A stretch of DNA of 64,000 bases from Deroplatys truncata (taxonomy: Eukaryota > Arthropoda > Insecta > Mantodea > Mantidae): the NCBI GenBank assembly GCA_030765065.1, contig CM060983.1, positions 51,954,067 through 52,018,066 on the forward strand, given 5' to 3'. The position numbers and the translations under genes are program-made. Shown here one piece after another: positions 197-49,265 of the stretch (the first letter of the stretch is position 1; every line of letters starts with the position of its first letter). Under the pieces are notes generated by a model that was not told the origin of the DNA, did not search any database, and saw only the letters and a program-made list of their open reading frames with translations.

Positions 197-197
<1 letters not shown>

Positions 198-13437: not shown

Positions 13438-13588
13438 GAAATATGTATGGTTTTTTGTAAAGGAATGTAATAGGATAATGTTTATAAAAAATAAATGTTG
13501 TCTGCATTACTTTTTGTAAAGTGATATGTTTTTTTACATGTATTCAGTTAAACTGATTTTTAAAAATTGGTTTACATGAATGTTGTTT
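13438..13588. other. Spacer between small ORFs and Myb/SANT relic (right arm)
   Basis: AT-rich; contains AATAAA near 13490. Mirror of 5451-5601. Nothing else recognised. Confidence 0.4.
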
Positions 13589-14359: not shown

Positions 14360-14989
14360 TCTCTATATTACAGTATAAACCTACATTCCTCCTCCTTCAA
14401 TCTCTGTCTATCCTTGTATCTCTCCTGTTTTCCATATTTCTCCCATATAAACGTATACTCTAATCCTCAAACCATGTCTAGACTAGCACCTCTCCTCGTA
14501 TACCCTACGGCTCTCATATAAATGCATTTTCCTCCTTGAAGACTCTCTCAACCTAGCACCTACCTTCGTTTTCCCTATATTTTCCTATATAGACGTATAC
14601 TCTCTCATTCAGACCTTCCCGACTAGCCTAGCACTTCTCCTCATATTCCCCTACCTCTCTCATATAAGATGCATTCCCTCATTCAACACCGTCTAGCCTA
14701 GCATCGACCCTCGTATTCCCTATCTCTCGCATATAAACGCCTACTCCATCATTCAAAACTCCTATCCTAATACCTCTCCTCGGTTTGCTATATCGCTCAT
14801 ATTCTACCCTTCAAGTCCTGTTTAGTATAGCATCTTTCCTTGTGTTCCCTATCTCTCTCGTATAAAGCATATCCCTCCCTCCTTTAGCATCTGACTAGCC
14901 TAGCATCAGCCCTGGTATTCCCTATCTCTCCCCTATAAATACTTCTATCTAGAGACCTAATGTTTCAGGAGAGCATCCTTTCCCCTATA
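14360..14989. repeat. ~65-75 bp degenerate tandem repeat (right arm of palindrome 1)
   Basis: Inverted counterpart of 4051-4680 with the same order of diverged units; the repeated CATATAAA and GTCTAGCCTAGCA motifs are read on the + strand here. Confidence 0.75.
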
Positions 14990-17900
14990 AAAGTTTATTT
15001 GGTGTCTTTATCTTAATTAGTTTAGGAGTTATTAAATTTATAATTAAATTGCATTTTATCGGTATTCGAACCCTGGACACCAGAACCAATATTATTTACA
15101 ATATTAGTTTGATATGTTTAAGGGTGCTGTATGCATTTACAGCATCAATCTAAGTGATATATTCTAGAGTATAGAGAAAAATAAGTAAGTGATTGAAAGA
15201 TCGGGATTCGAAGTAAGGACAGCTGATTGAAAATTATATACAGTATTAATTGCCCCTCATAGGAGCTATCAATCATGCTTTGGTCAATTCCTCTACCTCT
15301 CTTAGTTTCTGAGATAATGACGATTTAAACATTAGGCTCGAACCCAGAACGTCAGGTATCTAATTACACATCCACAAGATACTACCTAGTAACATAAACG
15401 CAATAAAGTTTATTTGGCGTCTTTATCTTAATTAGTTTAGGAGTTATTAAATTTATAATTAAATTACATTTTATCGGTATTCGAACCCTGGACACCAGAA
15501 ACAAAATTATTTACAATATTAGTTTGATATGTTTAAAGGTGCTGTATGCAGTTACAGCATCAATCTAAGTGATATATTCTAGAGTATAGAGAAAAATAAG
15601 TAAGTGATTGAAAGATCGGGATTCGAAGTAAGGACAACTGATTGAAAATTATATACAGTATTAATTACCCCTCATAGGAGCTATCAATCATGCTTTGGTT
15701 CACTCGTCTACCTCTCTTAGTTTCTGAGATAATGACGATTTAAAATTAGGCTCGAACCCAGAACGTCACGTATCTAATTACACATCCACAAGATAATACC
15801 TAATAACATAAAGGCAATAAAGTTTATTTGGCGTCTTTATCTTAATTAGTTTAGAAGTTATTAAATTTATAATTAAACTATATTTTATCGGTATTCGAAC
15901 CCTGGACACCAGAAACAAAATTATTTACAATATTAGTTTGATATGTTTAAAGGTGCTGTATGCAGTTACAGCATCAATCTAAGTGATATATTCTAGAGTA
16001 TAGAGAAAAATAAGTAAGTGATTGAAAGATCGGGATTCGAAGTAAGGACAACTGATTAAAAATTATATACAGTATTAATTACCCCTCATAGGAGCTATCA
16101 ATCATGCTTTGGTCAATTCCTCTACCTCTCTTAGTTTCTGAGATAATGACGATTTAAACATTAGGCTCGAACCCAGAACGTCAGGTATCTAATTACACAT
16201 CCACAAGATACTACCTAGTAACATAAACGCAATAAAGTTTATTTGGCGTCTTTATCTTAATTAGTTTAGGAGTTATTAAATTTATAATTAAATTACATTT
16301 TATCGGTATTCGAACCCTGGACACCAGAAACAAAATTATTTACAATATTAGTTTGATATGTTTAAAGGTGCTGTATGCAGTTACAGCATCAATCTAAGTG
16401 ATATATTCTAGAGTATAGAGAAAAATAAGTAAGTGATTGAAAGATCGGGATTCGAAGTAAGGACAACTGATTGAAAATTATATACAGTATTAATTACCCC
16501 TCATAGGAGCTATCAATCATGCTTTGGTTCACTCGTCTACCTCTCTTAGTTTCTGAGATAATGACGATTTAAAATTAGGCTCGAACCCAGAACGTCAGGT
16601 ATCTAATTACACATCCACAAGATAATACCTAATAACATAAAGGCAATAAAGTTTATTTGGCGTCTTTATCTTAATTAGTTTAGAAGTTATTAAATTTATA
16701 ATTAAACTATATTTTATCGGTATTCGAACCCTGGACACCAGAAACAAAATTATTTACAATATTAGTTTGATATGTTTAAAGGTGCTGTATGCAGTTACAG
16801 CATCAATCTAAGTGATATATTCTAGAGTATAGAGAAAAATAAGTAAGTGATTGAAAGATCGGGATTCGAAGTAAGGACAACTGATTGAAAATTATATACA
16901 GTATTAATTACCCCTCATAGGAGCTATCAATCATGCTTTGGTTCACTCGTCTACCTCTCTTAGTTTCTGAGATAATGACGATTTAAAATTAGGCTCGAAC
17001 CCAGAACGTCACGTATCTAATTACACATCCACAAGATAATACCTAATAACATAAAGGCAATAAAGTTTATTTGGCGTCTTTATCTTAATTAGTTTAGAAG
17101 TTATTAAATTTATAATTAAACTATATTTTATCGGTATTCGAACCCTGGACACCAGAAACAAAATTATTTACAATATTAGTTTGATATGTTTAAAGGTGCT
17201 GTATGCAGTTACAGCATCAATCTAAGTGATATATTCTAGAGTATAGAGAAAAATAAGTAAGTGATTGAAAGATCGGGATTCGAAGTAAGGACAACTGATT
17301 AAAAATTATATACAGTATTAATTACCCCTCATAGGAGCTATCAATCATGCTTTGGTCAATTCCTCTACCTCTCTTAGTTTCTGAGATAATGACGATTTAA
17401 ACATTAGGCTCGAACCCAGAACGTCAGGTATCTAATTACACATCCACAAGATACTACCTAGTAACATAAACGCAATAAAGTTTATTTGGCGTCTTTATCT
17501 TAATTAGTTTAGGAGTTATTAAATTTATAATTAAATTACATTTTATCGGTATTCGAACCCTGGACACCAGAAACAAAATTATTTACAATATTAGTTTGAT
17601 ATGTTTAAAGGTGCTGTATGCAGTTACAGCATCAATCTAAGTGATATATTCTAGAGTATAGAGAAAAATAAGTAAGTGATTGAAAGATCGGGATTCGAAG
17701 TAAGGACAACTGATTGAAAATTATATACAGTATTAATTACCCCTCATAGGAGCTATCAATCATGCTTTGGTTCACTCGTCTACCTCTCTTAGTTTCTGAG
17801 ATAATGACGATTTAAAATTAGGCTCGAACCCAGAACGTCAGGTATCTAATTACACATCCACAAGATAATACCTAATAACATAAAGGCAATAAAGTTTATT

Positions 17901-18530
17901 TGGCGTCTTTATCTTAATTAGTTTAGAAGTTATTAAATTTATAATTAAACTATATTTTATCGGTATTCGAACCCTGGACACCAGAAACAAAATTATTTAC
18001 AATATTAGTTTGATATGTTTAAAGGTGCTGTATGCAGTTACAGCATCAATCTAAGTGATATATTCTAGAGTATAGAGAAAAATAAGTAAGTGATTGAAAG
18101 ATCGGGATTCGAAGTAAGGACAACTGATTGAAAATTATATACAGTATTAATTACCCATCATAGGAGCTATCAATCATGCTTTGGTCAATTCCTCTACCTC
18201 TCTTAGTTTCTGAGATAATGACGATTTAAACATTAGGCTCGAACCCAGAACGTCAGGTAGCTAATTACACATCCACAAGATACTACCTAATAAAATAAAG
18301 GCAATAAAGTTTATTTGGCGTCTTTATCTTAATTAGTTTAGGAGTTATTAAATTTATAATTAAATTACATTTTATCGGTATTCGAACCCTGGACACCATG
18401 TACCCAAATATACATTCACAAGAAACTATCTAATGACATTAATGTAATAAACTTTATTTGATGTCTTTATCGTAATTAGTCTCTGAGTTATTAGAAGCTG
18501 AATTTGTAATTCGAACCCGGCCATCCTGGT
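14990..18530. repeat. 414-bp B-box-like tandem array (right arm)
   Basis: Inverted counterpart of 925-4050 with about 8.5 units, one more than the left arm; this explains the 415-bp shift between inner and outer mirror coordinates. Units differ by scattered SNPs, and different variants (GACGAGTGAACC versus GAGGAATTGACC on the left strand) are interleaved, as expected of unequal exchange. Confidence 0.85.
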
Positions 18531-19257
18531 CAACTTGGAACTCGTTGGAGAAGCTGCTGCTTGTTATATCATTTCCATCGCTAAAATCTAAAGTGTTGAG
18601 TGTTGGGCAGAGCACTTAGGAAAACAATTACTGACATTGTTCGCTAATGGGGTGAAAGCGTCTAACGGGTCAGCTAATAGAGGTCACCGTTACCGCCTGG
18701 CGGAAGTATGTCGTTCGCTAATGTATGTAAACAGATCCAGAATGTAAACTTAAAAGCCTATTAATGTGTTGAAAGCGTCTAACATGTTCAGCTAATGGAC
18801 AAGCGATTTCCCCAGATACAAGAAGGCTGCAGTGTTTCATTACATGACAGACTGTTACCGTGAGCAGACTACTTATACTCAAGCTCCAGTCAACAATTCA
18901 TTAATCAAAAAACTTAATTGCTCGAGGATGCAATCTGCAGACCTTAGTAATCATAAAAAAAATGTTTGACGAACATTACCTAATTAATTTGCCGAGGGGC
19001 GGCAGGACTCGAGAAAACAATTCCCTCAAGTCATGACGCCACAGTAGAACGCATGGGAGAGGGGGTAGGACCTGTTAGCACAGACACTGTCGGCATTAGG
19101 TGAGCACACAAAGCGAGAGGGGGCGGGGCCTAACGACACGAGACCTGGCGGCATGTGAGCCCTCAAAGGGAGGGGGCGGGGCTTGTCAGCGTAGAACAAA
19201 GAACTTTATCGCTTGTCGGCATCTCTATGTGGGCTCAAGTCGCTATTCTATTGCTAC

Positions 19258-19258
<1 letters not shown>
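18531..19258. repeat. Right subterminal region, mirror of the left
   Basis: Reverse complement of 197-924, with the same GC-box direct repeats (about 19045-19225) and the TTAGACGC pair. A 68-residue reading frame over the GC-box repeats is open in both arms, but in the right arm it continues into the ATT microsatellite, so I do not call it a gene. Confidence 0.6.
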
Positions 19259-19300
<42 letters not shown>

Positions 19301-32235: not shown

Positions 32236-32241
32236 ATAGTG
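32236..32241. other. Left target site duplication of palindrome 2 (ATAGTG)
   Basis: ATAGTG immediately precedes the AGTAGGTTATTTAGG terminus, and ATAGTG recurs immediately after the other terminus at 49260-49265. Six-bp duplications are characteristic of Polinton/Maverick insertion. Confidence 0.85.
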
Positions 32242-32261
32242 AGTAGGTTATTTAGGAGAGA

Positions 32262-33900
32262 TCGAGCACAGTTTTTTGGGCATATATGGGAAAGGATAGG
32301 GAAAACGAGGCTAGATGGGGAGGTTCAAGGAGGAAAATGGGTTTATATGGGGGAGATAGGGAATACGACGTCTGATACTATGCTAGACAGGGTTGAAGGA
32401 GGGAAATACGTTTATATGGAAGAAATAGTAGAGAGGTGTTAGGCTAGACAGAGGTCGAGAAGTAGAGCATGGTTTATATGAAAGGTATAGGAAAACGAGG
32501 AGGGGTGTTAGGCTAGACAGAGGTCGAGAAGTAGAGCATGGTTTATATGAAAGGTATAGGAAAACGAGGAGGGGTGTTAGGCTAGACAGAGTTGAAGGTT
32601 AGAGCATGTCTTTTATATGAGAGAGGTAGGGAACAGGAGCAGAGGTGTTGGGCTAGGCAGAGGTCAAGAAGTAGAGTATGGTTTATATGAAAGGTATAGG
32701 AAAACGAGGAGGGGTGTTAGGCTAGACAGAGTTGAAGGGCAGAGCATGTCTTGTATATGAGAGAGGTAGGGAACAGGAGCAGGGGTGTTAGGCTAGGCAG
32801 AGGTCAAGAAGTAGAGTATGGTTTATATGAAAGGTATAGGAAAACGAGGAGGGGTGTTAGGCTAGACAGAGTTGAAGGGTAGAGCATGTCTTGTATATGA
32901 GAGAGGTAGGGAACAGGAGCAGGGGTGTTAGGCTAGATAGAGGTCAAGAAGTAGAGTATGGTTTATATGAATGGTATAGGAAAACGAGGTGGGCTGTTAG
33001 GCTAGACAGAGTTGAAGGGTAGAGTATGTCCTTTATATGAGAGAGGTTGGGAACAGGAGGAGGGGTGTTAGGTTAGGAGAATTGAGTATGTGTTTATAAG
33101 GAGAGACGAGAAAACGGAGAGAGATCCTATGCTAGGATAGACAGGTGTTAAAGTTAGGTTAGATAGGAAACCAAGGAGTGATACTCAGCTAGAGGGGGGC
33201 AGGAGGAATGCGCTTTATGAGAGGTAGGGGATACGGGGAGTGGTGTTAGGCTAGACAGAGGTTGAGAGTAGAGTAGGCGTTTATATGTATGAGAAGTATA
33301 GAACAGGAGGAGGGGTGTTAGGCTAGACACAGGCTGAGAGTAGAGTATGCGTTTATATGTATGAGAGGTATAGGAGCAGGAGGAGAGGTGCTAGGCTAGA
33401 CAGAGGTTGAGTAGAGTATGGGTTATATGAGATAGGTAGGGAACAGGAGGAGAGGTGTTAGGCTAGACAGAGGGTTAGGAGTAGAGTATGGTTTATATGA
33501 GAAATATAGGAAAAACGAGGCGAGGTTTTAGGCTAGACAGAGGTCGAGGAGTAGAGTATGGCTTATATGAGAGGTATAGGAAAACGCGGAGAGCTATTAG
33601 CTTAGGAGAATTGAGTATGTGTTTATAAGGAGAGATGAGAAAACGAAAAGAGAACCTATGCTAGGATAGACAGGTGTTAAAGTTAGGTTAGATAGCAAAC
33701 CAAGGAGTGATACTCAGCAAGAGAAGGGCAGGAGGGAATGCGCTTATGAGAGGTAGGGGATACGGGAGTGGTGTTAGGCTAGACAGAGGTAGAGGAGTAG
33801 AGTATGGTTTATATGAGAGGTATAGGTAAAACGAGGAGAATCGGTAGGCTAGACAGATAGTGAAGCAGTAGGAATATGGACTTATATACAGGAGAGATAG
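32262..33900. repeat. ~70/139-bp tandem repeat (left arm of palindrome 2)
   Basis: GTTTATATGAAAGGTATAGG recurs at about 32471, 32542, 32681, 32820 and 32961 (steps 71, 139, 139, 141), alternating with a GAGAGAGGTAGGGAACAGGAG half-unit; each half ends GTGTTAGGCTAGACAGAG. Units become more degenerate toward both sides. Same family as 4051-4680. Confidence 0.85.
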
Positions 33901-34003
33901 GGGCTAGACTTTGAAATCGACTTTAGGCGAGAACTTCATGGAAATATGTTTCATGTCAATGTTAGAGCGCTAATTCTAGACATTCTCATCACGTAACCTA
34001 TTC

Positions 34004-34748
34004 AGGGAAAAGGTGACCAGCAAAGGGAAAAAGGTGACCAGGAAAGGGAAAAAGGTGACCAGGAAAGGGAAAAAGTGACCAGCAAAGGGAAAAAGGTGAC
34101 CAGCAAAGGGAAAAAGTTGACCAGCAAAGGGAAAAAGGTGACCAGCAAAGGGAAAAAGGTGACCAGCAAAGGGAAAAAGGTGACCAGCAAAGGGAAAAAG
34201 GTGACCAGCAAAGGGAAAAAGGTGACCAGCAAAGGGAAAAATGTGACCAGCAAAGGGAAAAAGGTGACCAGGAAAGGGAAAAAGGTGACCAGCAAAGGGA
34301 AAAAGGTGACCAGCAAAGGGAAAAAGGTGACCAGCAAAGGGAAAAAGGTGACCAGCAAAGGGTAAAAGGTGACCAGCAAAGGGAAAAAGGTGACCAGCAA
34401 AGGGAAAAAGGTGACCAGCAAAGCGAAAAACGTGACCAGCAAAGGGAAAAAGGTGACCAGGAAAGGGAAAAAGGTGACCAACAAAGGGAAAAAGGTGACC
34501 AGCAAAGGGAAAAAGGTGACCAGCAAAGGGAAAAAGGTGACCAGCAAAGGGAAAAAGGTGACCAGGAAAGGGAAAAAGGTGACCAGCAAAGGGAAAAAGG
34601 TGACCAGCAAAGGTAAAAAGGTGACCAGCAAAGGGAAAAAGGTGACCAGGAAAGGGAAAAAGGTGGCCAGCAAAGGGAAAAAAAGGTGACCAGCAAAGGG
34701 AAAAAGGTGACCAGCAAAGGGAAAAAGGTGACCAGGAAAGGGAAAAGC
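34004..34748. repeat. 21-bp minisatellite, left arm of palindrome 2
   Basis: About 35 units with core GGTGACCAGCAAAGGGAAA and few variants (AGGAAAGGG, TTGACC, CGTGACC). Stop-free frames (TSKGKKV on +, FFPLLVT or CWSPFSL on -) result from the period being a multiple of three. Confidence 0.95.
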
Positions 34749-34759
34749 TAACCCACTCA

Positions 34760-35625
34760 CACTAACAGGTAAGTAATTCAGTTAGTATCACAGGGTAGGA
34801 CATATCCCAAGGAAGCGGATATAGCATAGTTCCGTATGATGTTGCAGGTAATTCAGAGAGTATCGTAGGTATTTAGGATAATTCAAGTAACATAAGTGTT
34901 TAGAGTCACTCAGCTAGTATCACAGGAGGATAGTTTCCTGGAGCAGGACGTATCATAGCTGCATATTTTGCACAGGCAATTCAGTTAGTATCGGAGGGCA
35001 TTTAAGCTAATTCAGCTAGTATTACAAGAGGCTGACTGCATCATAGCAGTGTATGATTTCACAGGTAATTCAGTTAGTATTGTAGGTATTTAGGCTAATT
35101 CATCTAGTATCACAGGAGGATAGATTCCAGGGGTTGGGTATAGCATAGTTTCGTATTTCACAGGTAACTCAGCTAGTATCGTAGGTATTTAGCATAATTC
35201 AAGCGTCATAGGTGTTTAGAGTAATTAAGCTAGCATTACAGGAGGGTAGGTTCCAGGGTTGGTTATAACGTAGTTTTCGTATTTTACAGATAGTTCAGGT
35301 AATATCGTAAGTATTTGGGTAATCAGCATAGTTTCACAGATACTCGTGATAATTTAGATCAGAGATTTGTATCACAGCTATTTAAGGTAAATGCAGGTGA
35401 TTCAGGTTGTATCAATGGTATTTGAGTCATTTTAACAGGTAATTCATCTAGTATCATTGGTATTTAAGACAAACCAGATAGTGTCACAGGTGATCGTGCT
35501 AATTTAGAACAGGAATTCGTATCAGAGCTAGTTAAGGTAATTTCACATGATTCGACTAGTATCACAGGTATTTAAGTCATTTTAGCAGGTAATTCAACTA
35601 GTATCACAGGTACGCATGGTAATAT
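34760..35625. repeat. Degenerate ~30-45 bp repeats (left arm of palindrome 2)
   Basis: Loosely periodic blocks of GTAATTCAGYTAGTATCACAGG and GTATTTAGGMTAATTCA, each broken by extra sequence; some units carry AGGATAGRTTCCAGG. No gene. Mirror 44784-45649. Confidence 0.7.
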
Positions 35626-35745
35626 AGAGAGTAATTAGATCATAAACATTTCTCATCCAACGTTACAACAATTTATATACTTTTTTCTAAATCTTACAAA
35701 CTTATTATATGTTAAACAGTTATAAACTGCAGAGATAAACTGCAT
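35626..35745. other. Segment conserved between the two palindromes (left copy, palindrome 2)
   Basis: AGAGAGTAATTAGAT, TTCTCATCCAACGTTACAAC, TATATACTT, TTACAAACTT and TTAAACAGT follow in the same order as in 4676-4775. Mirror copy at 44664-44783. In both elements it lies between tandem repeats and the gene-bearing part. Confidence 0.65.
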
Positions 35746-36224
35746 ATGGCTCACAAATTAAAAAGCTTTGCGTCAACATACCTTTATTTAAGTTCGTTGT
35801 AGGTACCTCTCCCCTTTATCTAGGCTTCAGACTAACACTAGTATTTGCTCCTAATGGCAGGGTTACCACCGTCCCTTCCATCTTACCCTTTCTTCACCAT
35901 TTGTCTGCTAGTTACATACACAGCACATGAGTAAACTTTAATTATTTAAATTGTAGACTCGCTGAGAAAATCTTCATCTTCGGGTTTCATTCTCTTAAGT
36001 ACTGTTTGTAATACTGTAATGTCCATACGCATAGGTAGTTATTCCATCCTCAGCAATAATTCTTTTATCATCAAAGGGATTCAATGTAATTTTATTCACT
36101 TGCACTGTGGTAACAGCATGCTTTCGTGATAGGATTAGATTCATGGGCGTTCAGATGATTTCACAGGTTTTAAGACAGTCTGTATAGCTGTCAAACGAAA
36201 TGTACTGCTTAATAGCGCTACGTT
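35746..36224. other. 3' flank of the outer polymerase copy (left arm)
   Basis: Carries ACTAACACTAGTATTTGCTCC and TTCTTCACCATTTGTCTGCTA-type blocks that recur at about 37640-37735 after the inner polymerase copy, showing that the polymerase end and its 3' flank were tandemly duplicated. No separate gene. Mirror 44185-44663. Confidence 0.5.
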
Positions 36225-36623
36225 TTATACCTTTAATCTTTTTATCATTGATCCTTGAATATCTAAGGCATACATCTTAGGACGTAGTCCAACAAAGCGC
36301 AGGATGATTTTGCTATTAGCCTCATCTTTAAATTTCCCCAATACCTTCTTGTTCTGAGTAGAGTAACATATATGGTTGGCAAGGTAATCAGCTGTATCGA
36401 GGTGCTCAAGAAAACGTAGCTTGTCCTGGTACACATCTTCAGTTGTTACACGATGAATGAATGAATCAGTGTCCATATACATAAGCTTCAGGTTTTCAGC
36501 TCCATAATAAGGCAACAACACGTCGTAATGATAGTGATACATTAATGTCTTGGAGATGTCCAACACACTCATACCAATGAATATAGACTTGTTGAATACA
36601 ATCTGACGAGAGGCCATATGTAC
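36225..36623 (-). pseudogene. Polinton-type DNA polymerase B, C-terminal piece, outer copy (left arm)
   Basis: The last ~132 codons of a 214-codon frame match the protein-primed family B polymerase of Polintons. IGMSVLDISKTLMY leads to the catalytic motif C as LMYMDTDSF (YMDTDS at frame residues 131-136), then KKVLGKFKDE and FVGLRPKMYALD. Both motif C aspartates are kept. Motifs A and B and the exonuclease and TPR regions are absent, because the frame upstream enters the GCTGCTACAG repeat block (36612-37560) instead of polymerase sequence. It is therefore a fragment fused to repeats. It reads outward. Confidence 0.8.
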
Positions 36624-37560
36624 AGCAGCTACAATGATAGCAGCAATAGATCCTGCAGCTACAGAAACATCACCCGCAGCCTGGACAATAGCTGTAACAG
36701 AAGCAAATACAATAGCTACCGTAGCAGATACAGCAGCTGTACGACAATAGATGTAACAGATCTTACAGCTGTAGCAACATCTGCTACAATAACAGCAGCG
36801 ACAAACACCAGTTACATAACAGCTGTAGGGGCAGCAGCAGGAAAGATTTAGCACTCTTAGCAATAGCAAGCATCACAGCAAAGATATTCCAGCTATAGCT
36901 TCACCCACCACAGCAACAGCAGTCATCACTCCAGATGTAACATCAAATACGGAGCTGAAGTAGTAGATACAACACTGTAACATCAGCTACAGCAATAACA
37001 GTATCAGATCAGGTAGCTGTAACAGCATTAGACATAGTCAGCACAATACCTATAGCAGAAGCAAATACAGCAGCTATCGTAGCAGATACAGAGACTGTAC
37101 AACAATAGCTGTAACAGACCCCACAGCTGTAGCAGCATCCGCTATAACAATAGCAGTAGCCGTCGCATTACATAACAACTGCAGCAGCAGCTAGAGATTT
37201 AGCAGTGTTTAGCAATAGCAAGCATCACAGCAATGATATTCCAGCTGTAGATTCCCCTACCACAGCAAAAGCAGTCATCACAACATCAACAGTAAATACG
37301 ACAGATGTAGTATCAGATACAGCATCTATAGCAACAGCAGCTACAACGATAGCAGCAATAGATCCTGCAGCTGTAGCAGCATTAGACACAATCAGCACAA
37401 TAGCTGTAGCAAAAGCAAATACAATTACTATCGTAGCAGATACAGCAGCTGTACAACAATAGATGTAACACATCCTACAGCTGTAGCAACATCTGATACA
37501 ATAATAGCAGAGACAACAACCGGTTACATTACAGATGTAGCAGCAGCTAATCCATTTTTT
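36612..37560. repeat. ~357-bp repeat block rich in GCTGTAGCAG (left arm)
   Basis: Three tandem units, each itself built of degenerate GCWGCTACAGCTGT-like triplet repeats, and each containing CAGCTGTACAACAATAG and GCTATTGCTAAnnnTGCTAAAT on one strand. Frames through it are low complexity (Ala/Thr/Val or Cys/Tyr). It separates the two polymerase copies. Mirror 42849-43797. Confidence 0.75.
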
Positions 37561-37564
37561 GTTC

Positions 37565-37863
37565 AAATGTAACAGCTTTATCAGTTAAATCATTGCTTCA
37601 TTAAACAAGGATTGTAAGGGTAGACGTCTCTTCCCTTTATATAGGCCTGAGACTAACACTAGTATTTGCTCCTAATGGTTACCGCCTCCCCTTCCATCTT
37701 CTCCTTTCTTCACCATTTGTCTGCTATGTGCATACACAGCACATGAGTAAACATTAATTTTTAACATGGTAGATTCGCGGAGATCATCAAAGGGATTCAA
37801 TGTAATTTTATTCACTTGCACAGTAGTATCAGCATGCTTTCATGATAAGATTCATAGGTGTTC
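37565..37863. other. 3' flank of the inner polymerase copy (left arm)
   Basis: Diverged duplicate of part of 35746-36224 (shared ACTAACACTAGTATTTGCTCC and CACAGCACATGAGTAAAC). No gene. Mirror 42546-42844. Confidence 0.5.
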
Positions 37864-38809
37864 TCATGATTTCACAGGTTTTAGGACAATCAGTATAACT
37901 CTCAAATGTAATGTAATGCTTAATAGCACTACGTTTTTACCCTTAATCTTTTTTACCATTGAGCCGTGGATATCTAAGGCATACATCTTAGCTCGTAGTC
38001 CGACAAAGCGCTGGATGATTTTATCATTAGCCTCATCTTTAGATTTCCCAAGCAATTTGTTTAGAGCTGAATAGCATATATAGTTGACAGGGTAATCAGC
38101 AGTAATCAGATGTTCAAGTAAACGTAACTTATCCTGTTCCACATCTCCAGTTGTTACACGATGAATGAATGAATAAGTATCCATATACATAAGCTCCATA
38201 ATATGATAACAGCACATCGTAATGATGGTGATACATTGTCTCGGAGATGTCCAACACACTCATACCAATGTATACAGGCTTGTCGAGAGACCATAAATAC
38301 AACAGCTAGAACAGCAGCATATATCGACCTATCAATAAACGTAGGCTTGGCGATCAGCTTCTCTAGTCTTCTCATTTATCACCAGTCGTATATCCATACG
38401 ATCAGGCAGATTCTCCAGTTTTTCCAAACATGACGTTGTTAAAGAGCTGTAGACGTCCTTCTCGAAATCATTAGCAGCTTATTGTAGTAGCCTGTTGTTA
38501 AATTCCGCATAAGGTTTTAACCACTGTGTCTGTTGGAATTGCAGCACACTATGGATTTTTTAGTCGTAACCCATGATTAAGAGCTTGATTCAAAGCTATG
38601 TAATGTACTACATACTTCTTTCGAGGTCCAAGACGAGGTATCAGTTTCTTTGTATATGATTTCAATGGTTTCATACACTCAGGCAGGAAAGGTAGATCGT
38701 TAAGTTCTATAGGTTGCTCGATGTCTGTGACGTCACACCCAGAGACAGGATGTCTGCCAGTATCAAACACGTTTAAACTCGTCTCGTAACTACCTGTATA
38801 TGCTGTCAC
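37864..38809 (-). pseudogene. Polinton-type DNA polymerase B, inner longer copy (left arm)
   Basis: Fragments in several frames cover more of the palm than the outer copy. An 86-codon frame (38549-38809) holds PFLPECMKP, RKKYVVHYIALNQAL and HGLRLK. Then come WLKPYAEFNNR, a motif B-like FNNVMFGKT in a shifted frame, and RMDIRLVINEK. Last is a 131-codon frame (37864-38259) with motif C as YMDTYS: the second catalytic aspartate is Tyr. KSKDEANDKII and FVGLRAKMYALD follow. Frameshifts, stops and the lost aspartate make it inactive. The N-terminal exonuclease half is missing. Confidence 0.8.
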
Positions 38810-39330
38810 ATCAACAAGAGAAGTATTCCCACACGCTCATTCAGTCAGATGTTACATTCAAAGCCTACCACCACCCATTACACCGAAGCTAGCACAATCT
38901 CAAAGGCTTAAAAGGTCACGTAGAAGATTTTCCCCCTTACTTACTTAAATGTGTGTATATACTACATTATTTCATGTTTTCATTCCCTTTTCAATTCTTC
39001 CTTTCCATCTTCTTCTAGAAAGACCATTACATTTCACTACAATCACGAGAAAAGCAATTTTTCCAGAGTTTCACAGATTCTAAGCTTCTAGAATCGAACC
39101 CGCTAATAGTTTTAATAAATGTATTTTTAGTAATTTAGCTCCCTCGCATCAGCATCTACCATTTAATCTTTACTCGAACCTGATAGGATTCATAGGCTTG
39201 AAGATATATGAAATCACCCCTTCGGGATTCGATCTGAGTACTTTAAAGTACTTTTTGTCATAATAACGATATTTAGGAACTAGGTACTCTGTTTACGGTT
39301 TACTTGACGTGTCTATTAAAATTAGATTAC
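38810..39330. other. Unassigned stretch between polymerase and B-box repeats (left arm)
   Basis: No gene recognised. Contains a GGGATTCGATCTGAG-like and an AGAATCGAACCC motif (about 39091 and 39227), further TTCGA-type cores in the style of the 414-bp repeat. Mirror 41079-41599. Confidence 0.4.
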
Positions 39331-39990
39331 GAGTTATTAAATTTGCAAGTAAATTTCATTAAATCGGTATTCGAACCCAGAACACCAGGAACAAAATAAT
39401 TTATAATATTAGCTTGACATGTTAAACAAAGCTGTGTGCAGTTACGCTATCAATCTAAGTGATATATTTATAAAATTAGTTTGCTATGTTAAAAAGAGTT
39501 GTATACAGTTACGCAATCAATCTAAGTGATATATTCTAGTATACAGAGAAAAATTAAGGAAATCATTTAAAAATCGGGATTCGAAATAGGGACAACTGAT
39601 TAAAAATTATATACATTATTAATTACACATTATAACAGCTATCAAACATGCTTTGGTTCATCCCTCTACCTCTCTTAGTTTCCGAGATAATTGAGATTTA
39701 AACTTAAGGATCGAACCCTGGACGTCAGGTACCCTAATATACATTCAGAAGAAACTACCTAATGATATAAATGTAATAAAATTTATTCGACGTCTTTATC
39801 TTAATTAGTCTCTGAGTTATTAGAAGTTGAATTTGTAATTACTCGTGGGATTCGAACCCAAGCATCCCGGACAACTCGGATTAATATCTCAAGGACGCGG
39901 CGCATTCCAAAGAATTGATTAGTTTTTATCCCATTGTTCTATCTCTCTTCATTCAGGAGATATAAGCGATTAAACAGTAGTAGGGAAATG
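39331..39990. repeat. B-box-like repeat, truncated array (left arm of palindrome 2)
   Basis: Related to the 414-bp unit of palindrome 1: GGTATTCGAACCC (39366), GGGATTCGAA (39573), GGATCGAACCC (39708) and GGGATTCGAACCC (39847) are B-box-like motifs in reverse orientation. A ~347-bp piece present in the right arm is missing here; the junction (near 39469) shows only 3-4 bp of shared sequence. Confidence 0.75.
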
Positions 39991-40075
39991 ACAGTTCTGG
40001 CGCAATTAATTTATGCATGGAATGCAATTAATATGCTAATTAGGCCCACCCCCACTAATTAGCCCCCCTCTCATT
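39991..40075. other. Central spacer of palindrome 2
   Basis: About 80 bp that do not pair as arms. It contains a small inner palindrome TGCATGGAATGCA (40013-40025) and asymmetric C-rich sequence (40044-40080). The arm sequence TATAAGCGATTAAACAGTAG resumes on either side. Confidence 0.7.
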
Positions 40076-41078
40076 TCCCCCCTACTGTTTAATCGCTTAT
40101 ATCTCCTGAATGAAAAGAGATAGAACAATGGGATAAAAACTAGTCAATTCTTTGGAATGCGCTGCGTCCTTGAGATATTAATCCGAGTTCTCCGGGATGC
40201 TTGGGTTCGAATCCCACGAGTAATTACAAATTCAACTTCTAATAACTCAGAGACTAATTAAGATAAAGACGTCGAATAAATTTTATTACATTTATATCAT
40301 TAGGTAGTTTCTTCTGAATGTATATTAGGGTACCTACGTCCAGGGTTCGATCCTTAAGTTTAAATCTCAATTATCTCGGAAACTAAGAGAGGTAGAGGGA
40401 TGAACCAAAGCATGTTTGATAGCTGTTATAATGTGTAATTAATACTGTATATAATTTTCAATCAGTTGTCCCTAGTTCGAATCCCGATTTTTAAATGATT
40501 TCCTTAATTTTTCTCTGTATACTAGAATATATCACTTAGATTGATTGCGTAACTGTATACAACTCTTTTTAACATAGCAAACTAATTTTATAAATAATTT
40601 TGTTTCTGGTGTTCTGGGTTCGAATACCGATAAAATGTATTTTAATTATAAATTTAATAACTCCTAAACTACTTAAGATAAAGACGTCAAATAAACTTTA
40701 TTACATTTATATCAATAGGTAGTTTCTTGCGAATCTATATTTGGGGATCTGGTGTCCTGAGTTCGATTCTTAATTTTAAATCTTCATTATCTCTGGAACT
40801 AAATGAGGTAGAGGAGTGGGCCAAAGCATGTTTGATAGGTTCTGTACTGGGTAATTAATGCTGTATATAATTGTCAATCAGTGGTGCTTGGTTCGATTCC
40901 CATCTTTTAATGAGTTCCTTAATTTTCCTCTGTACACTAGAATATATCACTTAGATTGATAGCGTAACTGCACACAGCTTTGTTTAACATGTCAAGCTAA
41001 TATTATAAATTATTTTGTTCCTGGTGTTCTGGGTTCGAATACCGATTTAATGAAATTTACTTGCAAATTTAATAACTC
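40076..41078. repeat. B-box-like repeat array (right arm of palindrome 2)
   Basis: GGGTTCGAATCCC (40203), a near-perfect B-box consensus, then GGGTTCGATCC (40345), AGTTCGAATCCCG (40475), GGGTTCGAATACC (40617), GAGTTCGATTC (40759), GGTTCGATTCCC (40890) and GGGTTCGAATACC (41031), spaced about 130-142 bp. TCTGGTGTTC and CCTGGTGTTC mark unit starts 415 bp apart (40605, 41020). Confidence 0.8.
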
Positions 41079-41599
41079 GTAATCTAATTTATATAGACAC
41101 GTCAAGTAAACCGTAAACAGAGTACCTAGTTCCTAAATATCGTTATTATGACAAAAAGTACTTTAAAGTACTCAGATCGAATCCCGAAGGGGTGATTTCA
41201 TATATCTTCAAGCCTATGAATCCTATCAGGTTCGAGTAAAGATTAAATGGTAGATGCTGATGCGAGGGAGCTAAATTACTAAAAATACATTTATTAAAAC
41301 TATTAGCGGGTTCGATTCTAGAAGCTTAGAATCTGTGAAACTCTGGAAAAATTGCTTTTCTCGTGATTGTAGTGAAATGTAATGGTCTTTCTAGAAGAAG
41401 ATGGAAAGGAAGAATTGAAAAGGGAATGAAAACATGAAATAATGTAGTATATACACACATTTAAGTAAGTAAGGGGGAAAATCTTCTACGTGACCTTTTA
41501 AGCCTTTGAGATTGTGCTAGCTTCGGTGTAATGGGTGGTGGTAGGCTTTGAATGTAACATCTGACTGAATGAGCGTGTGGGAATACTTCTCTTGTTGAT

Positions 41600-42545
41600 G
41601 TGACAGCATATACAGGTAGTTACGAGACGAGTTTAAACGTGTTTGATACTGGCAGACATCCTGTCTCTGGGTGTGACGTCACAGACATCGAGCAACCTAT
41701 AGAACTTAACGATCTACCTTTCCTGCCTGAGTGTATGAAACCATTGAAATCATATACAAAGAAACTGATACCTCGTCTTGGACCTCGAAAGAAGTATGTA
41801 GTACATTACATAGCTTTGAATCAAGCTCTTAATCATGGGTTACGACTAAAAAATCCATAGTGTGCTGCAATTCCAACAGACACAGTGGTTAAAACCTTAT
41901 GCGGAATTTAACAACAGGCTACTACAATAAGCTGCTAATGATTTCGAGAAGGACGTCTACAGCTCTTTAACAACGTCATGTTTGGAAAAACTGGAGAATC
42001 TGCCTGATCGTATGGATATACGACTGGTGATAAATGAGAAGACTAGAGAAGCTGATCGCCAAGCCTACGTTTATTGATAGGTCGATATATGCTGCTGTTC
42101 TAGCTGTTGTATTTATGGTCTCTCGACAAGCCTGTATACATTGGTATGAGTGTGTTGGACATCTCCGAGACAATGTATCACCATCATTACGATGTGCTGT
42201 TATCATATTATGGAGCTTATGTATATGGATACTTATTCATTCATTCATCGTGTAACAACTGGAGATGTGGAACAGGATAAGTTACGTTTACTTGAACATC
42301 TGATTACTGCTGATTACCCTGTCAACTATATATGCTATTCAGCTCTAAACAAATTGCTTGGGAAATCTAAAGATGAGGCTAATGATAAAATCATCCAGCG
42401 CTTTGTCGGACTACGAGCTAAGATGTATGCCTTAGATATCCACGGCTCAATGGTAAAAAAGATTAAGGGTAAAAACGTAGTGCTATTAAGCATTACATTA
42501 CATTTGAGAGTTATACTGATTGTCCTAAAACCTGTGAAATCATGA
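41600..42545 (+). pseudogene. Polinton-type DNA polymerase B, inner longer copy (right arm)
   Basis: Mirror of 37864-38809 with the same frameshifts and the same YMDTYS change, so the lesions were present before the arms were copied or were homogenised afterward. Reads outward. Together the palindrome holds four polymerase fragments, none complete. Confidence 0.8.
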
Positions 42546-42848
42546 GAACACCTATGAATCTTATCATGAAAGCATGCTGATACTACTGTGCAAGTGAATA
42601 AAATTACATTGAATCCCTTTGATGATCTCCGCGAATCTACCATGTTAAAAATTAATGTTTACTCATGTGCTGTGTATGCACATAGCAGACAAATGGTGAA
42701 GAAAGGAGAAGATGGAAGGGGAGGCGGTAACCATTAGGAGCAAATACTAGTGTTAGTCTCAGGCCTATATAAAGGGAAGAGACGTCTACCCTTACAATCC
42801 TTGTTTAATGAAGCAATGATTTAACTGATAAAGCTGTTACATTTGAAC

Positions 42849-43797
42849 AAAAAATGGATTAGCTGCTGCTACATCTGTAATGTAACCGGTTGTTGTCTCT
42901 GCTATTATTGTATCAGATGTTGCTACAGCTGTAGGATGTGTTACATCTATTGTTGTACAGCTGCTGTATCTGCTACGATAGTAATTGTATTTGCTTTTGC
43001 TACAGCTATTGTGCTGATTGTGTCTAATGCTGCTACAGCTGCAGGATCTATTGCTGCTATCGTTGTAGCTGCTGTTGCTATAGATGCTGTATCTGATACT
43101 ACATCTGTCGTATTTACTGTTGATGTTGTGATGACTGCTTTTGCTGTGGTAGGGGAATCTACAGCTGGAATATCATTGCTGTGATGCTTGCTATTGCTAA
43201 ACACTGCTAAATCTCTAGCTGCTGCTGCAGTTGTTATGTAATGCGACGGCTACTGCTATTGTTATAGCGGATGCTGCTACAGCTGTGGGGTCTGTTACAG
43301 CTATTGTTGTACAGTCTCTGTATCTGCTACGATAGCTGCTGTATTTGCTTCTGCTATAGGTATTGTGCTGACTATGTCTAATGCTGTTACAGCTACCTGA
43401 TCTGATACTGTTATTGCTGTAGCTGATGTTACAGTGTTGTATCTACTACTTCAGCTCCGTATTTGATGTTACATCTGGAGTGATGACTGCTGTTGCTGTG
43501 GTGGGTGAAGCTATAGCTGGAATATCTTTGCTGTGATGCTTGCTATTGCTAAGAGTGCTAAATCTTTCCTGCTGCTGCCCCTACAGCTGTTATGTAACTG
43601 GTGTTTGTCGCTGCTGTTATTGTAGCAGATGTTGCTACAGCTGTAAGATCTGTTACATCTATTGTCGTACAGCTGCTGTATCTGCTACGGTAGCTATTGT
43701 ATTTGCTTCTGTTACAGCTATTGTCCAGGCTGCGGGTGATGTTTCTGTAGCTGCAGGATCTATTGCTGCTATCATTGTAGCTGCTGTACATATGGCC
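42849..43797. repeat. ~357-bp repeat block rich in GCTGCTACAGCTG (right arm)
   Basis: Inverted counterpart of 36612-37560. Equivalent points GTTGTACAGCTGCTGTATC (42953), GTTGTACAGTCTCTGTATC (43306) and GTCGTACAGCTGCTGTATC (43664) mark the three units. Confidence 0.75.
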
Positions 43798-44184
43798 TCT
43801 CGTCAGATTGTATTCAACAAGTCTATATTCATTGGTATGAGTGTGTTGGACATCTCCAAGACATTAATGTATCACTATCATTACGACGTGTTGTTGCCTT
43901 ATTATGGAGCTGAAAACCTGAAGCTTATGTATATGGACACTGATTCATTCATTCATCGTGTAACAACTGAAGATGTGTACCAGGACAAGCTACGTTTTCT
44001 TGAGCACCTCGATACAGCTGATTACCTTGCCAACCATATATGTTACTCTACTCAGAACAAGAAGGTATTGGGGAAATTTAAAGATGAGGCTAATAGCAAA
44101 ATCATCCTGCGCTTTGTTGGACTACGTCCTAAGATGTATGCCTTAGATATTCAAGGATCAATGATAAAAAGATTAAAGGTATAA
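43786..44184 (+). pseudogene. Polinton-type DNA polymerase B, C-terminal piece, outer copy (right arm)
   Basis: Mirror image of 36225-36623 with identical translation, including YMDTDS. The enclosing frame starts at 43540 in the trinucleotide-like repeats, which contribute a low-complexity Ala/Val/Cys-rich N-terminal part. In life the polymerase would copy linear DNA from a protein primer; this piece alone cannot. Confidence 0.8.
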
Positions 44185-44783
44185 AACGTAGCGCTATTAA
44201 GCAGTACATTTCGTTTGACAGCTATACAGACTGTCTTAAAACCTGTGAAATCATCTGAACGCCCATGAATCTAATCCTATCACGAAAGCATGCTGTTACC
44301 ACAGTGCAAGTGAATAAAATTACATTGAATCCCTTTGATGATAAAAGAATTATTGCTGAGGATGGAATAACTACCTATGCGTATGGACATTACAGTATTA
44401 CAAACAGTACTTAAGAGAATGAAACCCGAAGATGAAGATTTTCTCAGCGAGTCTACAATTTAAATAATTAAAGTTTACTCATGTGCTGTGTATGTAACTA
44501 GCAGACAAATGGTGAAGAAAGGGTAAGATGGAAGGGACGGTGGTAACCCTGCCATTAGGAGCAAATACTAGTGTTAGTCTGAAGCCTAGATAAAGGGGAG
44601 AGGTACCTACAACGAACTTAAATAAAGGTATGTTGACGCAAAGCTTTTTAATTTGTGAGCCATATGCAGTTTATCTCTGCAGTTTATAACTGTTTAACAT
44701 ATAATAAGTTTGTAAGATTTAGAAAAAAGTATATAAATTGTTGTAACGTTGGATGAGAAATGTTTATGATCTAATTACTCTCT

Positions 44784-45649
44784 ATATTACCATGCGTACC
44801 TGTGATACTAGTTGAATTACCTGCTAAAATGACTTAAATACCTGTGATACTAGTCGAATCATGTGAAATTACCTTAACTAGCTCTGATACGAATTCCTGT
44901 TCTAAATTAGCACGATCACCTGTGACACTATCTGGTTTGTCTTAAATACCAATGATACTAGATGAATTACCTGTTAAAATGACTCAAATACCATTGATAC
45001 AACCTGAATCACCTGCATTTACCTTAAATAGCTGTGATACAAATCTCTGATCTAAATTATCACGAGTATCTGTGAAACTATGCTGATTACCCAAATACTT
45101 ACGATATTACCTGAACTATCTGTAAAATACGAAAACTACGTTATAACCAACCCTGGAACCTACCCTCCTGTAATGCTAGCTTAATTACTCTAAACACCTA
45201 TGACGCTTGAATTATGCTAAATACCTACGATACTAGCTGAGTTACCTGTGAAATACGAAACTATGCTATACCCAACCCCTGGAATCTATCCTCCTGTGAT
45301 ACTAGATGAATTAGCCTAAATACCTACAATACTAACTGAATTACCTGTGAAATCATACACTGCTATGATGCAGTCAGCCTCTTGTAATACTAGCTGAATT
45401 AGCTTAAATGCCCTCCGATACTAACTGAATTGCCTGTGCAAAATATGCAGCTATGATACGTCCTGCTCCAGGAAACTATCCTCCTGTGATACTAGCTGAG
45501 TGACTCTAAACACTTATGTTACTTGAATTATCCTAAATACCTACGATACTCTCTGAATTACCTGCAACATCATACGGAACTATGCTATATCCGCTTCCTT
45601 GGGATATGTCCTACCCTGTGATACTAACTGAATTACTTACCTGTTAGTG
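44784..45649. repeat. Degenerate ~30-45 bp repeats (right arm of palindrome 2)
   Basis: Inverted counterpart of 34760-35625, with CCTGTGATACTAGCTGAATT and TACCTACGATACT as recurring cores. Confidence 0.7.
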
Positions 45650-45660
45650 TGAGTGGGTTA

Positions 45661-47498
45661 GCTTTTCCCTTTCCTGGTCACCTTTTTCCCTTTGCTGGTC
45701 ACCTTTTTCCCTTTGCTGGTCACCTTTTTTTCCCTTTGCTGGCCACCTTTTTCCCTTTCCTGGTCACCTTTTTCCCTTTGCTGGTCACCTTTTTACCTTT
45801 GCTGGTCACCTTTTTCCCTTTGCTGGTCACCTTTTTCCCTTTCCTGGTCACCTTTTTCCCTTTGCTGGTCACCTTTTTCCCTTTGTTGGTCACCTTTTTC
45901 CCTTTGTTGGTCACCTTTTTCCCTTTGCTGGTCACGTTTTTCGCTTTGCTGGTCACCTTTTTCCCTTTGCTGGTCACGTTTTTCCCGTTGCTGGTCACCT
46001 TTTTCCCTTTGCTGGTCACCTCTTTCCCTTTGCTGGTCACCTTGTTCCCTTTGCTGGTCACCTTTTTCCCTTTGCTGGTCACCTTTTTCCCTTTGCTGGT
46101 CACCTTTTTCCCTTTCCTGGTCACCTTTTTCCCTTTGCTGGTCACCTTTTTACCTTTGCTGGTCACCTTTTTCCCTTTGCTGGTCACCTTTTTCCCTTTC
46201 CTGGTCACCTTTTTCCCTTTGCTGGTCACCTTTTTCCCTTTGCTGGTCACCTTTTTCCCTTTCCTGGTCACCTTTTTCCCTTTGCTGGTAACATTTTTCC
46301 CTTTGCTGGTCACCTTTTTCCATTTGCTGGTCACCTTTTTCCCTTTGCTGGTCACCTTTTTCCCTTTGATGGTCACCTTTTTCCCTTTGCTGGTCACCTT
46401 TTTCCCTTTGCTGGTCACCTTTTTCCCTTTGCTGGTCACATTTTTTCCCTTTGCTGGTCACTTTTTCCCTTTGCAGGTCGCATTTTTCCCTTTGCTGGTC
46501 ACATTTTTCCCTTTGCTGGTCACCTTTTTCCCTTTGCTGGTCACCTTTTTCCCTTTGCTGGTCACCTTTTTCCCTTTGCTGGTCACCTTTTTCCCTTTGC
46601 TGGTCACCTTTTTCCCTTTCCTGGTCACCTTTTTCCCTTTGCTGGTCACGTTTTTCCCTTTGCTGGTCACCTTTTTCCCTTTGCTGGTCACCTTTTTCCC
46701 TTTGCTGGTCACGTTTTTCCCGTTGCTGGACACCTTTTTCCCTTTGCTGGTCACCTTTTTCCCTTTCCTGGTCACCTTTTTCCCTTTGCTGGTCACCTTT
46801 TTCCCTTTGCTGGTCACCTTTTTCCCTTTGCTGGTCACCTTTTTCCCTTTGCTGGTCACCTTTTTCCCTTTGCTGGTCACCTTTTTCCCTTTCCTGGTCA
46901 CCTTTTTCCCTTTGCTGGTCACCTTTTTCCCTTTGCTGGTCACCTTTTTCCCTTTGCTGGTCACCTTTTTCCCTTTCCTGGTCACCTTTTTCCCTTTCCT
47001 GGTCACCTTTTTCCCTTTGCTGGTAACATTTTTCCCTTTGCTGGTCACCTTTTTCCATTTGCTGGTCACCTTTTTCCCTTTGCTGGTCACCTTTTTCCCT
47101 TTGATGGTCACCTTTTTCCCTTTGCTGGTCACCTTTTTCCCTTTGCTGGTCACCTTTTTCCCTTTGCTGGTCACCTTTTTCCCTTTGCTGGTAACATTTT
47201 TTCCCTTTGCTGGTCACTTTTTCCCTTTGCAGGTCGCATTTTTCCCTTTGCTGGTCACATTTTTCCCTTTGCTGGTCACCTTTTTCCCTTTGCTGGTCAC
47301 CTTTTTCCCTTTGCTGGTCACCTTTTTCCCTTTGCTGGTCACCTTTTTCCCTTTGCTGGTCACCTTTTTCCCTTTGCTGGTCAACTTTTTCCCTTTGCTG
47401 GTCACTTTTTTCCCTTTGCTGGTCACTTTTTCCCTTTCCTGGTCACCTTTTTCCCTTTCCTGGTCACCTTTTTCCCTTTGCTGGTCACCTTTTCCCTG
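45661..47498. repeat. 21-bp minisatellite, right arm of palindrome 2
   Basis: About 87 units, 52 more than the left arm (1092 bp). A distinctive variant series (TGGTAACATTTTTCCC, then CCATTTGCTGG, then TTTGATGG, then TTTGCAGGTCGC) appears twice, 735 bp apart (46321 versus 47056), so 35 units were duplicated as a block. This yields a 616-codon open frame of FFPLLVT repeats that I do not consider a gene. Confidence 0.95.
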
Positions 47499-47600
47499 AA
47501 TAGGTTACGTGATGAGAATGTCTAGAATTAGCGCTCTAACATTGACATGAAACATATTTCCATGAAGTTCTCGCCTAAAGTCGATTTCAAAGTCTAGCCC

Positions 47601-49240
47601 CTATCTCTCCTGTATATAAGTCCATATTCCTACTGCTTCACTATCTGTCTAGCCTACCGATTCTCCTCGTTTTACCTATACCTCTCATATAAACCATACT
47701 CTACTCCTCTACCTCTGTCTAGCCTAACACCATTCCCGTATCCCCTACCTCTCATAAGCGCATTCCCTCCTGCCCTTCTCTTGCTGAGTATCACTCCTTG
47801 GTTTGCTATCTAACCTAACTTTAACACCTGTCTATCCTAGCATAGGATCTCTTTCCGTTTTCTCATCTCTCCTTATAAACACATACTCAATTCTCCTAAG
47901 CTAATAGCTCTCCGCGTTTTCCTATACCTCTCATATAAGCCATACTCTACTCCTCGACCTCTGTCTAGCCTAAAACCTCGCCTCGTTTTTCCTATATTTC
48001 TCATATAAACCATACTCTACTCCTAACCCTCTGTCTAGCCTAACACCTCTCCTCCTGTTCCCTACCTATCTCATATAACCCATACTCTACTCAACCTCTG
48101 TCTAGCCTAGCACCTCTCCTCCTGCTCCTATACCTCTCATACATATAAACGCATACTCTACTCTCAGCCTGTGTCTAGCCTAACACCCCTCCTCCTGTTC
48201 TATACTTCTCATACATATAAACGCCTACTCTACTCTCAACCTCTGTCTAGCCTAACACCACTCCCCGTATCCCCTACCTCTCATAAAGCGCATTCCTCCT
48301 GCCCCCCTCTAGCTGAGTATCACTCCTTGGTTTCCTATCTAACCTAACTTTAACACCTGTCTATCCTAGCATAGGATCTCTCTCCGTTTTCTCGTCTCTC
48401 CTTATAAACACATACTCAATTCTCCTAACCTAACACCCCTCCTCCTGTTCCCAACCTCTCTCATATAAAGGACATACTCTACCCTTCAACTCTGTCTAGC
48501 CTAACAGCCCACCTCGTTTTCCTATACCATTCATATAAACCATACTCTACTTCTTGACCTCTATCTAGCCTAACACCCCTGCTCCTGTTCCCTACCTCTC
48601 TCATATACAAGACATGCTCTACCCTTCAACTCTGTCTAGCCTAACACCCCTCCTCGTTTTCCTATACCTTTCATATAAACCATACTCTACTTCTTGACCT
48701 CTGCCTAGCCTAACACCCCTGCTCCTGTTCCCTACCTCTCTCATATACAAGACATGCTCTGCCCTTCAACTCTGTCTAGCCTAACACCCCTCCTCGTTTT
48801 CCTATACCTTTCATATAAACCATACTCTACTTCTTGACCTCTGCCTAGCCCAACACCTCTGCTCCTGTTCCCTACCTCTCTCATATAAAAGACATGCTCT
48901 AACCTTCAACTCTGTCTAGCCTAACACCCCTCCTCGTTTTCCTATACCTTTCATATAAACCATGCTCTACTTCTCGACCTCTGTCTAGCCTAACACCCCT
49001 CCTCGTTTTCCTATACCTTTCATATAAACCATGCTCTACTTCTCGACCTCTGTCTAGCCTAACACCTCTCTACTATTTCTTCCATATAAACGTATTTCCC
49101 TCCTTCAACCCTGTCTAGCATAGTATCAGACGTCGTATTCCCTATCTCCCCCATATAAACCCATTTTCCTCCTTGAACCTCCCCATCTAGCCTCGTTTTC
49201 CCTATCCTTTCCCATATATGCCCAAAAAACTGTGCTCGAT
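47601..49240. repeat. ~70/139-bp tandem repeat (right arm of palindrome 2)
   Basis: Inverted counterpart of 32262-33900; the + strand shows TCTCATATAAACCATAC and CTCTGTCTAGCCTAACACC in every half-unit. CATATAAA gives a TATA-like motif per repeat. No gene. Confidence 0.85.
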
Positions 49241-49259
49241 CTCTCCTAAATAACCTCCT

Positions 49260-49265
49260 ATAGTG
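49260..49265. other. Right target site duplication of palindrome 2 (ATAGTG)
   Basis: Directly follows the ...CCTAAATAACCTCCT terminus and equals 32236-32241. Confidence 0.85.

Follow-up and report, generated by a model that had tools for sequence, protein, structure and literature searches.

Two insertions palindromic from end to end in a 64-kb window of Deroplatys truncata: a Polinton-like element and a probable second member of its group

The 64,000-nucleotide stretch of contig CM060983.1 of Deroplatys truncata analysed here (hereafter the window) contains two insertions, E1 and E2, that are inverted repeats throughout. They lie 13 kb apart and share an architecture, with little sequence in common. 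E2 occupies positions 32242-49259 (17,018 bp) between perfect 6-bp duplications ATAGTG. Its AGT-type ends, this duplication, and fragments of a family B DNA polymerase (PolB) akin to the polymerase that a viral contig carries beside an integrase and an ATPase together support a Polinton-like identity, as judged from sequence. We lean towards the view that E2 is Polinton-like and non-autonomous and owes its full palindromy to hairpin (snap-back) copying, and that E1, placed in the same group by its ends and shape only, is probably a second such element.

Results

Self-comparison of E2 by BLAST gave two long inverted matches, 32245-34746 against 49256-46757 at 98.8% identity and 34004-39468 against 46407-40941 at 99.5%. 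The middle of the element (39465-40596), which first resembled a 1.5-kb spacer, is itself self-inverted in the self-comparison. Aligning its two halves showed that they pair as far as a loop of about 73 bp (near 39995-40067, centred near 40031); counting outward from 39994 and 40068, 56 of the first 60 positions are paired. A preliminary description of this DNA had proposed a palindrome of the whole element around a spacer of about 80 bp. The inversion does run from end to end, the middle included, and the spacer estimate was about right. The arm-against-arm symmetry that it described is sound insofar as E2 is palindromic throughout; the centre, however, is not the midpoint, and the arms are unequal, at about 7.75 kb on the left and 9.2 kb on the right. 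The apex is off-centre because the 21-bp array is longer on the right, because the right arm has about one extra 415-bp unit, and because 67 bp are tandemly duplicated in the left arm.

The longest exact inverted repeat in E2 measures 4,793 bp. It did not exceed 18 bp in any of 20 first-order Markov sequences of the same composition, and in the two flanking stretches of the window the longest are 51 and 35 bp. If the 21-bp array and the part adjoining the loop are set aside, the arms mismatch at 6 of 6,414 aligned bases. These comprise 1 of 189 in the terminus, none of 1,170 in the 70/140-bp arrays, 3 of 403 in the next segment and 2 of 4,652 in the PolB region, which is one continuous stretch with 4,650 bases agreeing. 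The count for the 21-bp array depends on the alignment, being 4 of 743 in the best one and 26 mismatches in another. The figure of 94.6% for the self-match of the inner arms counts every difference twice, and the pairwise alignments give the true counts.

At the junctions the letters read ...CATGATAC ATAGTG, then AGTAGGTTATTTAGG ... CCTAAATAACCTCCT, then ATAGTG GAAATAATC. The left terminus is therefore AGTAGGTTATTTAGG and the right, on the opposite strand, AGGAGGTTATTTAGG; they start AGTAGG and AGGAGG, the AG/AGT type of inverted terminal repeat that marks Polinton/Maverick elements and that the preliminary description had recognised here. The ATAGTG duplication that it reported is perfect on both sides, and among lengths 1-15 the flanks are identical at 6 bp only, which is the Polinton/Maverick length. 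Vertebrate Mavericks have (AG)3 and (AGT)2 end motifs and 6-bp duplications, as given in the part of the source cited (PMC8097293). The span first proposed for the insertion, 32236-49265, encloses a real insertion and takes in both duplications as well, the element proper being the 17,018 bp between them.

Reading frames in both arms of E2 match family B polymerases, with 466 of 478 candidate proteins matching at E <= 1e-3. Among the matches listed (the best 120 of the 466, of which 34 were aligned), the best is 57% identical over 99% of the piece, and one is 72% identical over 79%. A profile built from 34 database proteins, with rows from the window left out, placed 10 of 1,987 six-frame pieces above the inclusion threshold (best E 3e-60). 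All ten lie in E2, five per arm and in mirror image, as expected from the outward-reading polymerase B fragments that had been claimed for both arms. Residue numbers refer to the 1,313-residue polymerase of L001, compared by tblastn. Its N-terminal three quarters are unmatched in E2 and only about the last quarter remains (about residues 964-1307). Each arm holds two broken copies, one of which keeps YMDTDS, a position that we take to be catalytic motif C. The naming of the polymerase draws on homologues, alignment and tblastn; PF03175 is precomputed on 1 of the 120 listed homologues (P0021). In their best segment the E2 fragments are 46-47% identical to a polymerase whose neighbours, in a related viral contig (the one behind L002), are an rve integrase (E 6.4e-8) and a packaging ATPase of A32 type (E 5.6e-11). 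Between the two polymerase copies, each arm of E2 also contains an array of GCA/ACA-like triplets with a 354-bp period (36622-37547 and 42861-43787).

The ends, the perfect duplication and the polymerase fragments thus uphold the Polinton identity first suggested for E2, and the term defective is also apt, as the polymerase survives only in these two broken copies and no other Polinton-type gene was found. Apart from PolB, no Polinton-type gene appeared among 126 reading-frame pieces (at least 30 residues) from the left arms of E1 and E2; weak matches fell to seven families, one each, with a best E of 0.0081. No protease gene appeared among the same pieces, the search having used no protease reference. 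A non-autonomous copy may lack an integrase, and we therefore file E2 as Polinton-like and derived rather than as a complete Polinton. Scans of viral contigs gave relatives from two contigs only, and no match to the termini of E1 or E2 or to the 21-bp unit of E2. These two contigs are not palindromic in the parts examined, where the largest inverted self-match is 37 bp, and 46 bp among the matches listed.

E1 (197-19258, 19,062 bp), which the preliminary description had not included, is also palindromic throughout. Both ends read AGTAGCAATAGA and start AGTAGC. On both sides stands (TTA)n in one and the same orientation, which assigns the run to the target rather than to the element; beyond it the flanking sequences differ. 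Because the site is (TTA)n, several duplication lengths fit: the flanks are identical at 3, 6, 9, 12 and 15 bp, lengths of 4, 5, 7 and 8 are excluded, and the duplication, fixed only to a multiple of 3, is compatible with 6 bp. A single self-inverted BLAST block of 16,993 columns (97.9%) spans the centre, and the longest exact inverted repeat is 1,149 bp, against at most 28 bp in 20 first-order Markov sequences. Mismatches between the arms number 1 of 860 in the terminus and 5 of 2,762, plus one gap, in the unique part (together 6 of 3,622), with 26 of 2,993 in the 415-bp array and 12 of 2,482 in the 21-bp array. Pairing continues to an apex of about 40 bp that contains a small inner hairpin. 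A 167-residue reading frame is identical in the two arms; none of 13 candidates proved homologous to it at E <= 1e-3. The frame has a weak zinc-finger-like Pfam match below the cut-off (E 0.089), and comparison with the polymerase gave no support to its being a remnant of a polymerase zinc finger.

The two elements have in common a 415-bp tandem unit, about 83% identical between them and confined to E1 and E2 in the self-comparison of the window. In E1 the unit is found towards the outer ends, and in E2 it adjoins the apex. Both also start with AGTAG. A shared terminal motif beyond these letters found no support, 3,618 of 5,000 random AGTAG pairs scoring as well over the first 40 bases, in a test that is weak, end gaps being free. 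Since architecture is alike and little sequence is common, either the shape arose on more than one occasion or it is characteristic of the group. Both elements hold arrays with a period of exactly 21 bp, different in sequence; the period is a multiple of 3, which leaves long open frames on both strands. The 415-bp unit is rich in GTTCGA, which occurs 33 times in E1, 14 times in E2, 3 times in the interval separating the elements and 5 times in the sequence right of E2. This hexamer resembles a tRNA B box; ARAGORN found no tRNA in the 415-bp units.

Elsewhere in the window, between the palindromes, an endonuclease/reverse-transcriptase-like fragment at 21448-21870 (+) falls below the Pfam cut-off (E 0.00027) and is probably a retrotransposon remnant; its reading frame found no homologue among 26 candidates. 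An ARAGORN tRNA call at 25499-25573 (-), with anticodon tta under the bacterial code, is probably spurious. No Rfam family matched at its gathering score.

Table 1. Features of E1 and E2, with positions in the window
Feature	Position	Strand	Basis
E1 left flank ATTATT in (TTA)n, duplication compatible with 6 bp	191..196	.	
E1 left arm, end AGTAGCAATAGAATAGCG, inner edge approximate	197..9511	+	
E1 left 415-bp array, 7.2 copies	1057..4050	+	
E1 167-residue reading frame, identical in both arms	5811..6311	-	
E1 left 21-bp array	6813..9354	.	
E1 apex with small inner hairpin, edges approximate	9512..9552	.	
E1 right arm, same end as left, inner edge approximate	9553..19258	-	
E1 right 21-bp array	9716..12226	.	
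E1 167-residue reading frame, mirror copy	12728..13228	+	
E1 right 415-bp array, 8.2 copies	14990..18398	-	
E1 right flank ATTATT in (TTA)n	19259..19264	.	
E2 left target-site duplication ATAGTG	32236..32241	.	sequence
E2 left arm, end AGTAGGTTATTTAGG	32242..39994	+	self-comparison, alignment
E2 left 70/140-bp arrays	32431..33600	.	identical to right arm, 1,170/1,170
E2 left 21-bp array, 35 copies, 743 bp	34004..34746	.	tandem-repeat analysis
E2 PolB fragment copy 1, left arm, outward-reading, broken into several frames, keeps YMDTDS; matches residues 1072-1307	36019..36710	-	
E2 PolB fragment copy 2, left arm, broken, YMDTYS replaces YMDTDS; matches residues 964-1293	37777..38692	-	
E2 apex loop, about 73 bp, edges accurate to within a few bases	39995..40067	.	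alignment
E2 right arm, reverse complement of left, end AGGAGGTTATTTAGG	40068..49259	-	self-comparison, alignment
415-bp units adjoining E2 apex, common to E1	40240..41111	+	self-comparison, repeat analysis
E2 PolB fragment copy 2, right arm (mirror)	41717..42632	+	
E2 PolB fragment copy 1, right arm (mirror)	43699..44390	+	
E2 right 21-bp array, 87 copies, 1,835 bp	45663..47497	.	tandem-repeat analysis
E2 right 70/140-bp arrays	47901..49070	.	identical to left arm, 1,170/1,170
E2 right target-site duplication ATAGTG	49260..49265	.	sequence

Discussion

Both E2 and E1 carry the same terminus twice and have arms that continue to a short loop, as a snap-back product would. We infer the following route, including mobilisation in trans. 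A linear, protein-primed element would be copied by strand displacement, exposing long single strands. A free or broken 3' end of the displaced strand may then fold on a short inverted match and prime its own copying, giving a hairpin whose base is the true terminus. One further round of copying would open the hairpin into a linear duplex with that terminus mirrored at both ends. This palindrome could then be inserted, with a 6-bp duplication, by a Polinton integrase acting in trans. The arrays would later change length independently in each arm.

A snap-back origin, already put forward in the preliminary description, fits palindromes that reach a short loop in two elements; it is not proven, and several observations count against it. 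The match to PolB breaks off at 38692, and about 1.3 kb containing 415-bp units separates it from the loop, so that the fold did not simply occur inside PolB unless the apex was later rebuilt with 415-bp units. The 21-bp array of E2 is 2.5 times longer on the right, which is unexpected of a fresh hairpin product and implies later change or misassembly. Mismatches are denser beside both apices (near 39995/40067 and 9505/9565), at 12 of 597 in E2 and 7 of 151 in E1 against 6 of 6,414 and 6 of 3,622, and the arms therefore do not differ evenly. E1 yielded no PolB by six-frame profile search or tblastn. No retrovirus-like integrase was found in E2, either among the 126 left-arm pieces or by tblastn with one rve integrase. 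Remnants of capsid and ATPase genes were also absent from the left-arm pieces and from tblastn, in which the capsid references had been labelled by eye, without a Pfam match. Finally, no Pfam family matched the polymerase pieces of E2; two full-length reference polymerases also lack a Pfam match, so that Pfam is insensitive here.

The two PolB copies within one arm of E2 share 65% amino-acid identity, whereas the arms are about 99.9% alike, and decay of the gene is therefore much older than the last equalisation of the arms. Either the conversion to a palindrome is recent and befell an element already dead, or the arms have been repeatedly rewritten from each other. It is tempting to speculate that palindromy is the working form of such elements, although we think this unlikely: hairpin-genome Polintons would live as parasites of autonomous ones, with each round of copying rewriting one arm from the other. 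Either displaced strand might then form a hairpin of full length, the base of which would be a duplex origin. If this were so, arms would stay about 99.8-99.9% alike while genes decay, and two largely unrelated elements of one shape would be expected.

Alternatively, Polinton-like terminal repeats may have grown inward on the chromosome, by recombination or gene conversion, until they met, as in Foldback and Galileo and with no hairpin genome. Tandem arrays do occupy much of each arm, array lengths are unequal between the arms, and the terminal repeats of Galileo range from 18 to 1,250 bp and expand via arrays and the recruitment of neighbouring sequence, according to the part of that paper cited (PMC3573991). 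However, those repeats are several times shorter than arms of 7.75-9.7 kb (PMC3573991, in the same part), and stepwise growth should usually leave a unique core, whereas both elements are palindromic up to a short loop and the near-perfect agreement across the PolB region of E2 covers one continuous stretch (4,650 of 4,652 bases). We regard such growth as possible but rather improbable. A hairpin could also have been made by the host, through foldback priming at a double-strand break of a linear copy or of the chromosome, with the palindrome integrated afterwards. In yeast, foldback priming at breaks near inverted repeats, followed by fill-in synthesis, gives hairpin-capped ends, as described in the part of the source cited (PMC10622511). 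The product would look identical, differing only in the maker of the hairpin. Yet the proper ends and 6-bp duplication of E2 require later integration of an extrachromosomal palindrome, and two cases in 64 kb make a rare accident less likely, although its features were the reason for choosing this window; host repair therefore seems to us decidedly improbable.

Whether E1 belongs with E2 deserves separate consideration. It is conceivable, though we doubt it, that E1 belongs among the foldback elements of a different transposon superfamily, E2 alone being Polinton-like. E1 has no PolB and no recognisable gene, its duplication length is known only as a multiple of 3, and by the weak comparison of termini given above, with end gaps free, its first 40 bases are common to E2 only in AGTAG. 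Against this stand the AGTAG start itself, the whole-length palindrome, the 21-bp arrays and the 415-bp unit, all common to E2, as well as the exclusion of duplications of 4, 5, 7 and 8 bp. An assembly artefact, in which fold-back reads or forced assembly produced the mirror images, is unlikely for either element, and we give it only very slight weight. Consensus polishing can make near-identical arms alike, and array lengths may be unreliable. But fold-back reads would mirror the flanks too, and the flanks of E2 differ and meet the element at its exact ends with a perfect 6-bp duplication, those of E1 differ beyond (TTA)n, and the arms carry scattered differences.

Like Polinton/Maverick elements and adinto-like viruses, these insertions have AGT-type ends and a length of 17-19 kb and, in E2, a 6-bp duplication and remnants of a protein-primed-type polymerase B. 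Unlike them, E1 and E2 are wholly inverted repeat, integrase, ATPase, protease and capsid genes were not found, and each arm of E2 holds two broken C-terminal copies of PolB. With Foldback and Galileo of Drosophila they share very long, internally tandem-repeated inverted repeats and unequal arrays in the two arms. Foldback makes 9-bp duplications. The flanks of E2 agree at 6 bp and at neither the 7 nor the 9 bp of that group, and those of E1 exclude 7 and not 9. Galileo differs further in its 7-bp duplications and repeats of up to about 1.25 kb, in the part of the source cited (PMC3573991), against 6 bp (E2) and arms of 7.75-9.7 kb here. E2 has PolB in place of Galileo's P-type transposase.

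No report of palindromic Polintons was among the literature matches listed, which is weak evidence of absence, as most subscription journals lie outside the coverage. Palindromic defective genomes of adenoviruses and hairpin derivatives of yeast linear plasmids are cases of protein-primed replicons that give palindromes or hairpins; our literature search turned up no paper on them. To our knowledge, extrachromosomal replication of Polintons has been little tested. Snap-back genomes of adeno-associated virus (AAV), the best-documented parallel among the sources consulted, are self-complementary and have the same terminus at each end. Their loop is small or large, and both symmetric and asymmetric forms occur, as set out in the part of the source cited (PMC8235507). 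E1 and E2 resemble them in self-complementarity, in having the same terminus twice and in the loop (PMC8235507, in part). They differ in virus and in priming system, and the AAV forms, in the same source, are packaged subgenomes, whereas E1 and E2 sit in a chromosome.

Insertions that are palindromic throughout, with true ends and duplications, would preserve a hairpin intermediate in fossil form and link the copying of Polintons to the snap-back products of other DNA viruses. Palindromes of 17-19 kb are normally unstable. Two such insertions 13 kb apart are therefore a natural test of how well an animal-type genome tolerates palindromes of this size.

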